Part shown: one piece after another, positions 53,908-58,025 of the stretch
How positions within the stretch are numbered: the stretch's first letter is position 1
Layout of the letters: each line of letters opens with the position of its first letter
Source of the DNA: Homoserinibacter sp. GY 40078
GTDB taxonomy: Bacteria > Actinomycetota > Actinomycetes > Actinomycetales > Microbacteriaceae
Direction of reading: 5' to 3'
NCBI RefSeq assembly: GCF_008017545.1
Contig: NZ_VRTZ01000002.1
Span: forward strand, 558,001 to 622,000
Length of the DNA: 64,000 nt
The notes under the pieces: model-generated
Told to the model about the DNA's origin: nothing
Database searches by the model: none
The model's input: only the letters and a program-made list of their open reading frames with translations
Position numbers and translations under genes: made by a program

Positions 53908-55314
53908 ATGGCCACCGCCTCGAAGTCCGCGACGAGCGCCACCCCGGAGGGCGCCACCAAGACCCGTGCGAAGACTGCGGCCGGCGCCAAGTCGGCCGGT
54001 ACCAAGTCGTCGGCATCAGAGAAGCCCGCATCAGAGAAGACGGCCGCCGCGACCAAGACGCCTGCGAAGACGAAGGCGTCGAGCCGTTCCGCCGCGAAGA
54101 AGCCGACCTCGAAGGCTGGCCCTGCGACTGCCTCCGACGATGAGGAGGTCGACGAGGAGCTCGAAGCGGAGCCCGCGGAGATCGCCGAAGACGAGGACAG
54201 CGACGACCAGAGCGATTCGGACGACACGGACGCAGACGACGAGTCGCCGTCGGACGAGAAGGAAGACGACGACAAGGACGACGACAAGGACGACTCCGGT
54301 CCGATCACTATCACCGAGCCGCTGCCGACGGGCGCTCTTCGCCTGTCGATGGCTGAGGACGACGACGAGGTCCCGGTCTACTCCGCGACGATCACCGGTG
54401 CCACCGCCGACCCCGTCAAGGACTACCTGAAGCAGATCGGTAAGGTCGCGCTGCTCAACGCTGAGCAGGAGGTCGAGCTCGCGATGCGCATCGAGGCCGG
54501 CCTGTTCGCCGAAGAGAAGCTGTCGCAGATGTCGGACACCGAGAAGCGCTCTCAGCTGGGGCGTGAGCTTGCCTGGGTCGCTCGGGACGGCCAGCGCGCC
54601 AAGAGCCACCTGCTCGGTGCGAACCTGCGTCTCGTGGTTTCGTTGGCGAAGCGCTACACGGGTCGCGGTATGCAGTTCCTCGACCTGATCCAGGAAGGCA
54701 ACCTCGGTCTGATCCGTGCGGTCGAGAAGTTCGACTACACCAAGGGCTTCAAGTTCTCGACGTACGCGACGTGGTGGATCCGCCAGGCGATCACGCGAGC
54801 CATGGCCGACCAGGCACGCACGATCCGTATCCCGGTTCACATGGTCGAGGTCATCAACAAGCTCGCGCGCGTCCAGCGGCAGATGCTGCAGGATCTGGGC
54901 CGCGAGCCCACTCCGGAAGAGCTCTCGCGCGAGCTCGACATGACCCCCGAGAAGGTCATCGAGGTGCAGAAGTACGGCCGCGAGCCGATCTCGCTGCACA
55001 CGCCTCTCGGAGAGGACGGCGACAGCGAGTTCGGTGACCTGATCGAGGACACCGAGGCGGTCGTGCCGGCGGACGCGGTCGGGTTCACGATGCTGCAGAA
55101 GCAGCTCGAATCGCTCCTGGACTCGCTGTCCGAGCGCGAGGCGGGCGTGATCCGTATGCGCTTCGGACTGGGCGACGGCATGCCGAAGACGCTCGATCAG
55201 ATCGGCGACACGTTCGGTGTCACGCGCGAGCGCATCCGTCAGATCGAGTCGAAGACGATGGCGAAGCTGCGTCACCCGTCGCGGTCGCAGTCGCTCCGCG
55301 ACTACCTGGAGTAA
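53908..55314 (+). CDS. rpoD: Primary RNA polymerase sigma factor (RpoD/SigA/HrdB)
   Basis: Housekeeping sigma-70. 468 residues. The first about 140 are Ala/Lys/Thr-rich then strongly acidic ([15 protein letters not shown]), as in actinobacterial SigA. Region 1.2-2 follows, [20 protein letters not shown], with the -10-binding segment [20 protein letters not shown]; region 3 ([12 protein letters not shown]) and region 4 ([20 protein letters not shown]) complete it. The ATG at 53908 has GAAAGGGG upstream. A TTGACA at 53851-53856 lies in the leader, without a convincing -10. Confidence 0.96.
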
Positions 55315-55321
55315 GAACCGG

Positions 55322-56038
55322 ATGGCCCACCGCCCCTATCAGGAGCGCAACCGCCCGCGCGTCGTCGAGATCGACGGCGTCTCGTTCGAGCGCATTCCGA
55401 TCAAGACGCACGTCGTTCTTCCTGGCGAGCCGCTGGAGCCGGTGGTCGAGACCTACGGGCTCGAGCACCTGCGCGACGGCGATTGGTTCTTCATGACCGA
55501 GAAGATGGTGGCCGCCTCCCAGGGGCGCGCATACCCCGTCTCGGAGGTCGCGGCGCGTCCGTTGGCGACGTGGCTGTCGAAGCACGTGGTGAAGACTCCG
55601 TGGGGTGTCGGCCTCGGCATCCCGGAGACGATGGAGATGGCGATCCGCGAAGTCGGGACGCCTCGGATCCTCGTCGCTGCCGCGGTCTCGGTCGTCTCGA
55701 AGCTGTTCGGCCGCACCGGCGACTTCTACCGTGTGGCGGGAAAGAAGGCCCGGGGAATCGACGGCCCGGGCTACCCCACGATTCCTCCCTACGACGAGAT
55801 GGTCGTGCTGACGGCGGCGGAGCCGTATCGCGTGAGCGAGCGCATTCGCGAGCTTCTCGCCGGTCACGGGCTCGACGTGCAGGTGCTGCTCGTCGACATC
55901 AACGACCTCGGCGGGAACATCCTCGGATCCACGGTGAGTGCCGACGACGAGAAGCTCGCGGTCCGCGTGCTGAAGGACAATCCGATCGGTCAAGGGCACG
56001 AATCCACGCCGCTCGGCGTCATCCGCCGCGTCGGCTGA
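55322..56038 (+). CDS. CofE-like coenzyme F420-0:L-glutamate ligase family protein
   Basis: 238 residues resembling the F420-0:gamma-glutamyl ligase fold: PIKTHVVLPGEPLEPVVETY, DWFFMTEKMVAASQGRAYP, GPGYPTIPPYDEMVVL and VLLVDINDLGGNILGST, with the metal-binding Asp and Glu residues of the family. It starts 7 nt after rpoD and is probably co-transcribed. No other F420 biosynthesis gene is in the window, and this family also has members in organisms that lack F420, so the acceptor is unknown. Confidence 0.75.
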   Translation: MAHRPYQERNRPRVVEIDGVSFERIPIKTHVVLPGEPLEPVVETYGLEHLRDGDWFFMTEKMVAASQGRAYPVSEVAARPLATWLSKHVVKTPWGVGLGIPETMEMAIREVGTPRILVAAAVSVVSKLFGRTGDFYRVAGKKARGIDGPGYPTIPPYDEMVVLTAAEPYRVSERIRELLAGHGLDVQVLLVDINDLGGNILGSTVSADDEKLAVRVLKDNPIGQGHESTPLGVIRRVG

Positions 56039-56039
56039 C

Positions 56040-57107
56040 TCAGCCCGTGTAGTGCCGGGGGAGTCGGCGCGACGATCGGGCGAGGATCTCGTCGCCGATC
56101 GTTGCGGCCCAGTGCGCCCAGTCCTCCACGGACGGTGCGCCGGCGTGCGGGCCGTACACGACGGCCTCGTCGCCCAGCGCGACGGTCGTGCCTTCGGGGA
56201 TCCGGACGCGGAGAGTGTCGAGTCCGACCTCGAGCACTGCGGCGCGTGACCCTGCGAGCAAGATCTCCGCGCCACGCCCACTCGCACCCAGCACGGACGG
56301 GGGGATGCCGTCCGCTGACCCCACCTCGAGCACCGCGACGTCGCCGTCGACGCCGATGACATCGGCGAACATACTGAGCGTGCCGCGCATGCCGAGGCCT
56401 GGCGCATCGACATCGTCGAACGGCGAGACACCATATGCGGCGATCCCGAAGCGAACGAGGTCGAGTCGCGCCTCCGGGAAGCGGATGCCCGCGGAACTCG
56501 CCGCGAGATGCAGGACCGGGCGACGTTCACCCTCGAGCGGCACGCCCATCTCCCCAGCGATGTCGACGGCAGCCCGGAAGCGGTCGAGAGCGGCTCGGTC
56601 ATCGGCGGGCGACGCATCCGCGAGGTGCGACCAGATCCCCGCGATGCGCACGCGCCCGTGACGTTCCAGATCCAGTGCGGCGCCGACGAGCGCCGGCCAA
56701 TCCTTCGGGTCGGCGCCGTTGCGGTGAAGCCCGGTGTCGATCTTCAGATGTACCTCAGCCGCACGCTCCGCACCTGCAGTTGCGATCCGTTCGAGTTCGC
56801 GGAGGGACGACACACCGAGGTCGACGCGGGAATCGATGGCGGGCCGAAACTCGGTGTCCGCTCCGTGCAGCCAGGCGAACAGCGGCACCTCGATTCCTGC
56901 GTCGCGCACGGCCAGGGCTGCCGGGACATCCAGGACGGCGAGCGAGTCGGCTCCCGCATCGAGACCCGCACGTGCCACGGGCAGAAGCCCATGACCGTAG
57001 GCGTCCGCCTTCACGGCGAACATCGTCCGGGCGGGCGCCGCGAGCGCCGCGAGAGCACTCACGTTCTCCCGGATGGCGTCGAGGTGTACGACGATCCGCG
57101 ACGTCAT
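56040..57107 (-). CDS. Alanine racemase paralogue B: barrel intact, catalytic-Tyr segment missing
   Basis: 355 residues of fold-type III PLP enzyme. The N-terminal barrel is complete: PLP-lysine Lys33 in AVKADAYGHG, HLKIDTGLHRNG, a GIWSHLADAS segment, HLAASSAG and the closing LVRFGIAAYGVSP. In the C-terminal beta domain the segment VSYGxTY, which carries the second catalytic base (Tyr265 of Geobacillus Alr), is deleted: FADVIGV runs directly into DGDVAVLEVGSADGIPP. The GRxxMDQ motif is also gone (VLEVGLDTLRV). On its own this protein should be a poor racemase. Its ATG overlaps the upstream paralogue's stop by 4 nt. See paralogue A: the two look complementary. Confidence 0.85.
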   Translation of the reverse strand: MTSRIVVHLDAIRENVSALAALAAPARTMFAVKADAYGHGLLPVARAGLDAGADSLAVLDVPAALAVRDAGIEVPLFAWLHGADTEFRPAIDSRVDLGVSSLRELERIATAGAERAAEVHLKIDTGLHRNGADPKDWPALVGAALDLERHGRVRIAGIWSHLADASPADDRAALDRFRAAVDIAGEMGVPLEGERRPVLHLAASSAGIRFPEARLDLVRFGIAAYGVSPFDDVDAPGLGMRGTLSMFADVIGVDGDVAVLEVGSADGIPPSVLGASGRGAEILLAGSRAAVLEVGLDTLRVRIPEGTTVALGDEAVVYGPHAGAPSVEDWAHWAATIGDEILARSSRRLPRHYTG

Positions 57108-57772
57108 GCGGCCTCCCGCGAGACGCGTTCGGCGATACCCGAGGTGAGGGCAGGGGCCGAGCGCTCGGTCCACGCGCCCCATTCGAGCGCGGAGGGCGCT
57201 CCACGGGTGGTGTCGCCGAATACCGTGACCTCGTCGCCGACCGTCACCTCTGCGTCGTGACAGTCGAGGACGAACTGATCCATCGCGATCCGGCCGACGA
57301 GCGGATGTCTGTGCCCGCCGATGAACGCCTCTCCGCGGTTGGACGCGAGGCGGGGCACGCCGTCTGCGTATCCGAGACCGACGAGTGCGAGTGTCGTCTC
57401 CGAGGCCGTGCGATACGTGTAGCCGTAGGAGACACCCTCGCCGCCGTTGACCCGCCGAACGGCGATGACCTCACCGACGAGTGTCATCAGAGGGCTGAAG
57501 CCCTCGCGGAGCCCGTAGGTCGCCTCTCCCCACTGGGGGTCGACCGCGATACTGCGGTCGCTGAGGACCTCGCGGAAACCCCACTCTCGGGACCGCGCGG
57601 CTGCAGCCTCGTCACTCACGACAATGCTCGTGACACCATGCGCGAGAGCGATGGGCGCGACGAGCGCGAGGCCGTGACCGTAGGCGTCGGCACGGCCGTC
57701 GAGAAACGGTGGATCGAGCCGGTCGAGATTCTGGATCAGAGCATCGAGATCGATGCGTGCCAGGCGGAGCAA
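57104..57772 (-). CDS. Alanine racemase paralogue A: catalytic-Tyr domain intact, barrel truncated
   Basis: 222 residues from a TTG at 57770-57772; a CTG at 57803-57805 with GGAG upstream would add 11 residues (SERPSAARSG context). Only the first about 85 residues resemble the racemase barrel (ARIDLDALIQNLDRL, RADAYGHG), with Arg27 where the PLP-binding lysine should be; barrel strands from about the third onward, including the DTGxHR motif, are absent. The C-terminal domain is complete: EGVSYGYTYRT with the catalytic tyrosine at 116, GLGYADGVPRLASNRG, GRIAMDQFVLD and GDEVTVFGD. A lone protein could not bind PLP normally. It precedes paralogue B with a 4-nt overlap. Confidence 0.82.
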   Translation of the reverse strand: MLRLARIDLDALIQNLDRLDPPFLDGRADAYGHGLALVAPIALAHGVTSIVVSDEAAAARSREWGFREVLSDRSIAVDPQWGEATYGLREGFSPLMTLVGEVIAVRRVNGGEGVSYGYTYRTASETTLALVGLGYADGVPRLASNRGEAFIGGHRHPLVGRIAMDQFVLDCHDAEVTVGDEVTVFGDTTRGAPSALEWGAWTERSAPALTSGIAERVSREAA

Positions 57773-57797
57773 GCCGGATCGCGCCGCCGACGGTCGT

Positions 57798-58025
57798 TCA
57801 CTCAGCGACAGGCTCCTGGAGCCGGCTGGACTCGTCGTGCCAGTCGAGGGCGGTCTCGATGAGCTTCGGCTTGTACTCCGTGCCGTGGTGCGCGCAGAAC
57901 AGCAGCTCGCCCGAGGCCAGGGTCACACGGACGTAGGCCTGGGCTCCACACATGTCGCACCGGTCGAGGGCACTGAGCGCGGGACGCTCCAGCTCGACGG
58001 TGCCATCACTCGCGATCTGGGACAT
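57798..58025 (-). CDS. DUF3039 family protein
   Basis: 75 residues, actinobacterial family of unknown function. The signature is present: RCDMCGAQAYVRVTL, then GELLFCAHHGTEY, giving a CxxC plus CxHH cluster that probably binds zinc. ATG at 58023-58025 with AAGGAGCAGG upstream. It is the first gene of a minus-strand set with the two racemase paralogues; its stop lies within 25 nt of, or overlaps, the paralogue A start. Confidence 0.85.
   Translation of the reverse strand: MSQIASDGTVELERPALSALDRCDMCGAQAYVRVTLASGELLFCAHHGTEYKPKLIETALDWHDESSRLQEPVAE

Follow-up and report, generated by a model that had tools for sequence, protein, structure and literature searches.

Overlapping, reciprocally incomplete alanine racemase genes in Homoserinibacter sp. 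GY 40078, a probable heterodimer with one composite active site

The window, that is the whole stretch of 64,000 nucleotides that was analysed, comes from the 2.98 Mb genome of Homoserinibacter sp. GY 40078 (99.9% completeness). Its minus strand carries a DUF7455 gene, gene A and gene B in this order, head to tail (Table 1). In brief, the product of gene A has the motifs DGRADAYGHG (with Arg27), VSYGYTY (with Tyr116) and GRIAMDQ (with Met164-Asp165). It matches the Pfam family Ala_racemase_C with 117.7 bits, and of Ala_racemase_N a remnant of 60 residues is left, scoring 21.8 bits and thus below the cut-off of 24.1. The product of gene B has the motif VKADAYGHG (with Lys33), lacks VSYGxTY and has VGLDT in place of AMDQ. 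Ala_racemase_N matches it across the whole profile (177.2 bits) and Ala_racemase_C from profile position 32 on (53.4 bits). Since the latter match begins at position 32, the C-domain is kept in B and the loss is limited to its partner-facing part. Single chains of A and of B gave confident models, each predicted to have the overall Alr fold.

Table 1. Positions of the genes, the overlap and the key codons in the window, and of the fused open reading frames of genus g21
Feature	Position	Strand	Description
DUF7455 gene	57798..58025	-	ATG at 58025; Pfam match on 57798-58019; directly upstream of A
Gene A	57104..57772	-	222 aa; putative partner subunit; few beta-alpha barrel units and racemase C-domain; PLP lysine absent
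ATGA overlap, stop of A and start of B	57104..57107	-	From sequence; translational coupling probable
Gene B	56040..57107	-	355 aa; putative catalytic-barrel subunit; PLP lysine present; C-domain without partner-facing loop
A Arg27 codon	57692..57694	-	Replaces PLP lysine (Lys39 of B. stearothermophilus Alr)
A Tyr116 codon	57425..57427	-	Equivalent of catalytic Tyr265', probably lent to partner site; from alignment, role as described in PMC3245724
A Met164-Asp165 codons	57278..57283	-	Equivalent of Met312'-Asp313'; from alignment
B Lys33 codon	57009..57011	-	Equivalent of Lys39, PLP Schiff-base lysine; from alignment
B Asp339 codon	56091..56093	-	Replaces specificity-gating Tyr354; aligned with S. 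lavendulae Alr Tyr361
B-A fusion ORFs, genus g21	L107:6790-8679 and L108:6878-8683		alr locus

A sequence-only reading of the window had described these genes as two overlapping, complementary, half-defective racemases, A having kept the two C-domain motifs and lost the PLP lysine together with most of the barrel, and B having kept the full barrel with its lysine and lost the C-domain motifs. Both open reading frames are present as described, and sequence and Pfam matches agree with this account of A and B. The 4-nucleotide overlap said to couple the two genes is found as well. The alternative end of A at 57805 is unsupported. The first ATG, GTG or TTG of the open frame of A is the TTG at 57772 and its stop is at 57106-57104; a longer A was rejected, as no earlier ATG, GTG or TTG occurs in the frame. 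On the plus strand, a gene weakly similar to an F420 ligase (55271-56038; 28.5 bits, cut-off 25) is convergent with gene B and ends 2 bases from its end.

A separate canonical alr, whose presence the sequence-only reading had considered, was found elsewhere in the window genome (L001); it has both Lys39 and Tyr265, and its residue set is complete. The same genome holds a further Alr-like gene (L002, C1:1276534-1277574) that adjoins a D-Ala-D-Ala ligase gene and has His at position 354. L002 and the ligase gene are possibly a peptidoglycan-modifying or resistance-type pair.

Active-site columns, 17 positions in the numbering of B. stearothermophilus Alr, were read from an alignment of A, B and full-length relatives. 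The census comprises 60 non-redundant pairs, 56 of the window type and four of other kinds (fused forms and Agreia), after removal of seven genomes present twice. The frameshifted pair L116 was left out of the residue censuses, and B of G112 and G038 is cut by contig ends. Lys is found at position 39 of A in 0/60 pairs; the position holds Arg in 44, Thr in five, Ser in three, Gly in two and Ala in one, and the segment is absent in five. The trans residues are kept in A, with Tyr265, Tyr/Phe284, Arg290, Met312 and Asp/Asn313 present in 60/60 and Arg309 in 54/60. Positions 312 and 313 are ones that we take to have an active-site role. The cis residues Lys39, Tyr43, Arg136, His166, Arg219 and Gly221 are each present in B in 60/60, and of the trans residues B holds Tyr265 in 0/60, Arg290 in 5/60, Arg309 in 6/60 and Met312 in 1/60 (G104). 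This reciprocity is imperfect, which was counted against the pairing, for B holds Tyr/Phe284 in many rows and Asp313 in most, and A is without Arg309 in 6/60. Glu355, a C-domain residue of the chain's own site, is present in 59/59 readable B sequences versus 14/60 A sequences, and position 352 is Ile, Val, Leu or Met in 59/59 readable B sequences versus 0/60 A sequences. Lys39 and Tyr265 occur together in all 111 full-length rows used for comparison, a redundant set in which some genomes are counted twice. In the window pair, PLP lysine and catalytic tyrosine are not on one polypeptide, A being without Lys39 and B without Tyr265; across A and B together the Alr active-site residues are complete, position 354 apart.

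In known Alr, as described in PMC3245724, each active site is shared between two monomers, one contributing its N-domain and its partner the C-domain. As the site is built from domains of different chains, A and B together would give one complete site, and as the same complementary pattern is found in 60/60 pairs, the pattern in the window is not due to chance. We suggest that A and B work as an obligate heterodimer whose single active site is composite, and put the probability of this at about 0.86. The two proteins would pair 1:1 in the head-to-tail geometry of alanine racemase. B would contribute Lys33 as the PLP lysine, along with the barrel and the residues acting on PLP in cis, and A would give the residues reaching across the dimer, namely the catalytic Tyr116 together with Tyr135, Arg141, Arg161, Met164 and Asp165. 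The second, reciprocal site would be dead, and the barrel of A would have shrunk along with it. An obligate heterodimer with one working site had been proposed from the window itself, and the proposal has gained from the reciprocal loss of Lys and Tyr in all 60 pairs, the co-inheritance of the genes, the ATGA coupling in most pairs, a natural fusion and two genera in which the only Alr-family proteins found are split. The complete alr in the same genome was counted against a need for A-B in growth, A-B then being a second, putative racemase beside it.

Among 120 genomes drawn from Microbacteriaceae the A-B pair is present in at least 33, the window genome included, a count taken from the matches listed, with some 70 of the 120 genomes entering without individual inspection. 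The pair directly adjoins the DUF7455 gene, which is co-directional or convergent, in 30 of the 33 and lies about 2.5 kb from it in the remaining three (G057, G073 and G077). DUF7455 is a conserved neighbour of the pair and may or may not be linked to it in function. In the window genus, B is present in 5/9 genomes and absent from 4/9, which was counted against the heterodimer. The best 80 of 593 relatives, from named genomes, comprise 30 A-B pairs (Leifsonia, Pseudoclavibacter, Pseudolysinimonas, Homoserinibacter, Agreia, Frigoribacterium, Pontimonas and others), 19 full-length Alr tandems (Herbiconiux, Clavibacter, Subtercola and Planctomonas) and 31 single alr genes. Each of the 30 B-type loci in this set has an A immediately before it, and the set contains no lone B-type gene; co-conservation, which the sequence-only reading had proposed as a check, is observed here, and an orthologue with one gene missing, named earlier as an argument against it, was found at none of the loci examined. 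The 4-nucleotide overlap is present in 24/33 family pairs (the window included) and in 19/27 named loci, seven genomes being in both sets and L116, L144 and L147 being left out of the latter count.

Full-length Alr tandems, whose first and second copies are here called T1 and T2, are found in 15 of the 120 genomes, of which one (G105) was judged by coordinates alone. None of these is among the at least 33 genomes with A-B (hypergeometric p 0.006, kinship ignored), as if the one had taken the place of the other. In L071, L073, L076 (Subtercola vilae) and L078 the frame of the second copy runs on into a sequence with a TsaE-like P-loop motif, the label being based on the motif, and these tandem second copies, e.g. 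that of L076, look like fusions of Alr with TsaE.

The size of A varies: in G008 and G080 it is of full length but lacks the lysine, others have a shortened barrel, and in G001, G084, G085 and G089 (with uncertain starts) it is hardly longer than the C-domain. In L060, L062, L064 and L069, A corresponds roughly to the C-domain alone, and a different short N-terminal segment replaces the barrel remnant. Arg at the lysine position, found in 44/56 window-type rows, usually lies inside a still conserved RADAYGHG-like motif, and the dead site of A seems to be retained for some structural reason.

Split racemases were also found in the place of alr itself. In genus g21 (G020 and G100) B and A are one polypeptide of 629 and 602 aa, respectively, in the order B-A. 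It follows glmS and precedes tsaE (the latter recognised by Pfam in G100 and by the same P-loop motif in G020), the place of alr, and no other ORF in these genomes has an Ala_racemase_C domain. Four further PF01168 matches in each of them score 70 bits or less and have no C-domain. In Agreia (G077 and G139, loci L193 and L194) alr is a split pair, B'-A', of 370/371 and 258 aa, located between glmS and tsaE, with an acpS gene between glmS and the pair (shown in G077). The Agreia genomes carry the usual A-B pair elsewhere. A search with B as query gave no intact full-length Alr in either Agreia genome, all matches being the four split-pair genes. The D-amino-acid aminotransferase model TIGR01121, with a cut-off of 277 bits, reached at best 50 and 53 bits in G020 and G100 and at most 64 bits in Agreia. 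D-alanine is needed for peptidoglycan. Given this need, and as no intact Alr was found, the split sites must work, unless an unrecognised source of D-alanine exists; other PF01168 or aminotransferase-like matches in the fused and Agreia genomes, below cut-offs or without the C-domain, were counted against this. Judged by locus and gene content, the split site is very probably competent, and the g21 fusion and the Agreia B'-A' pair very probably make D-alanine.

Trees were calculated under one simple model, LG+G4, for groups named by residues and gene order, quick trees having been seen beforehand. The long second racemase L002 was left out of the careful trees, and the long A rows G106, G067, G030 and G104 out of the C-domain tree. 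A single clade for the 34 B sequences was rejected (p-AU 0.001), as was a single clade for B, fused and Agreia forms (p-AU 4e-67). A single clade of fused and Agreia forms was not rejected (p 0.25), nor was one of all A (p 0.40); for A with Agreia A' the value was p 0.041. The barrel of Agreia B' is placed with first copies, those of two tandems with the Subtercola genus code (98/82), and Agreia A' falls among the second copies (99/87). The window-type pair has A before B, and its B barrel is placed with second copies (92/82, not starred). Inspected by eye, the trees of A and of B have many small clades in common. The reversal of roles between Agreia and the window-type pair argues that reciprocal loss took place independently two or more times, although how many origins there were apart from the two polarities is uncertain.

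The inner-gate residue at position 354 bears on the substrate choice of Alr (PMC4517790, PMC3485190). Asp339 of B aligns with Tyr361 of S. lavendulae Alr, which PMC3485190 equates with Tyr354 of the B. stearothermophilus enzyme. The tyrosine gate of Alr is thus absent from B of the window, and a non-tyrosine residue, as in the lysine racemase Lyr and the broad-specificity racemase Bar, is in its place. In window-type B the position is Asp in 41 and Glu in 14 of 55 readable rows. It is likewise Asp or Glu in 13/13 readable T2 rows, and Asp in 19 named T2. Canonical, T1 and single alr sequences have Tyr or Trp, save for the one His of L002, and the four split B that belong to a sole alr (fused and Agreia) have Tyr. 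This goes beyond what the sequence-only reading had noticed, and suggests that A-B is likely a second racemase, for a substrate other than alanine. From the acidic residue at the substrate gate we infer a cationic one. At roughly even odds, A-B would racemise a cationic (diamino) acid, e.g. the D-diamino acid of type-B peptidoglycan, while the separate alr would make D-alanine; this makes A-B a candidate racemase for the D-diamino acids of such walls. Charged residues at 354 lowered the activity of T. tengcongensis Alr, according to PMC4517790, which fits another substrate but names none. Clavibacter is described as having B-type walls with diaminobutyrate (PMC5882085), and Agromyces walls contain diaminobutyric acid, as described for A. 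arachidis (PMC3855984). The alr match of A. bauzanensis is, however, single and has Tyr354, so that a simple link to peptidoglycan type is unsupported. We found no literature joining Homoserinibacter with peptidoglycan and, in a narrow search, none on the racemase behind the D-diamino acids of type-B peptidoglycan.

Alternatively, A-B may be a heterodimeric alanine racemase isozyme, the split dimer serving as a second source of D-alanine. We regard this as the less favoured possibility, although all Alr active-site residues read, 354 apart, are present across the two chains and the splits at the alr locus very probably make D-alanine. An isozyme is difficult to reconcile with an acidic residue at 354 in 55/55 readable window-type B versus Tyr in the four sole-alr splits, and with the lowered activity of T. 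tengcongensis Alr when this position is charged (PMC4517790). Moreover, apart from Agreia, whose second split pair keeps Tyr354, the A-B genomes checked have a separate Alr match, with Lys39 and Tyr265 in the seven that were read.

It is improbable that B is an enzyme on its own, whether as a homodimer using a different acid/base or as a PLP enzyme other than a racemase, e.g. a lyase or decarboxylase, with A as a regulatory or stabilising pseudo-subunit. B does have a complete cis PLP site, and activation of an enzyme by a paralogue that is itself catalytically dead has a precedent in the trypanosome prozymes (PMC5201418). A mere regulator would, however, have no need of the trans residues Tyr265, Arg290 and Met312, which A keeps in 60/60; no Alr besides the fused and the Agreia forms was found in the genomes that carry them, and T2, the full-length relatives of B, retain the tyrosine. 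A non-racemase B helped by A, the other option offered by the sequence-only reading, is less likely than the heterodimer. Decay into pseudogenes, which that reading had also raised for A, we rule out almost completely, both for A and for the two genes together. A has lost most of its barrel, and in Homoserinibacter gongjuensis (L116/G120, a record of 89% completeness) both genes carry frameshifts, whether real or from sequencing errors. In all other fetched pairs, from 25 genus codes of the 120-genome draw, A is nevertheless open, the catalytic columns are invariant, the fold of A is confident, and NG86 dN/dS is 0.30-0.45 for A and 0.21-0.43 for B (the somewhat higher value of A was counted against the heterodimer, and YN00 gave values for 2/20 comparisons).

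Returning to the heterodimer and its wider history, we regard the following as about as likely as not. In the fold-III racemases of Microbacteriaceae a tandem duplicate would have become an obligate heterodimer at least twice, in opposite orders, its two members losing opposite halves of one active site; window-type pairs and T2 would be acidic-gated, the window-type pair being dedicated to a cationic diamino acid, and Agreia would have both racemases split, the essential one for alanine included, and no intact Alr. The forms at hand would make up a graded series, from a full-length lysine-less partner via a shortened barrel and little more than a C-domain to a fusion in one chain.

Alanine racemase, a classical target of antibacterial drugs, is also a textbook homodimer with its active sites at the interface. 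An active fragmentary B. stearothermophilus Alr was reportedly described long ago. The enzyme family itself is known; among the titles and abstract openings of the best-ranked results, we found no description of a heterodimeric or split alanine racemase. A-B shares with Alr/DadX (PLP fold type III; PF01168 and PF00842, TIGR00492) the fold, the PLP site, the trans tyrosine loop and the composite site of two domains. Known Alr are, however, homodimers with two equal sites, whereas A and B each hold half of the residues and B has Asp at 354; both score below the TIGR00492 equivalog cut-off (109.4 bits for A and 158.2 for B versus 168). Lyr and Bar (4dza, 4dyj) also have the Alr fold with Tyr354 replaced, by Thr391 in Lyr and Ala393 in Bar as given in PMC3485190. 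They are homodimers with a small residue at this position, whereas A-B is acidic there, is split over two chains and is nearer to actinobacterial Alr in sequence. The AdoMetDC-prozyme of trypanosomes likewise includes a paralogue without an active site of its own that its partner needs, as described in PMC5201418. That prozyme relieves autoinhibition, whereas A would bring in the catalytic tyrosine, and both chains have lost residues, in a reciprocal manner; the two genes are genetically coupled, and a prozyme-type requirement for A is possible. The replacement of homomers by heteromers after duplication, treated in PMC11066126 with a biophysical model and simulations, follows the same general route from duplicated homodimer to heterodimer. 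A-B would be a concrete natural case of it, with reciprocal active-site loss in both polarities, and thus a rare worked example of a duplicated homodimer turned obligate heteromer, in which the reciprocal split is conserved and repeated with opposite polarity.
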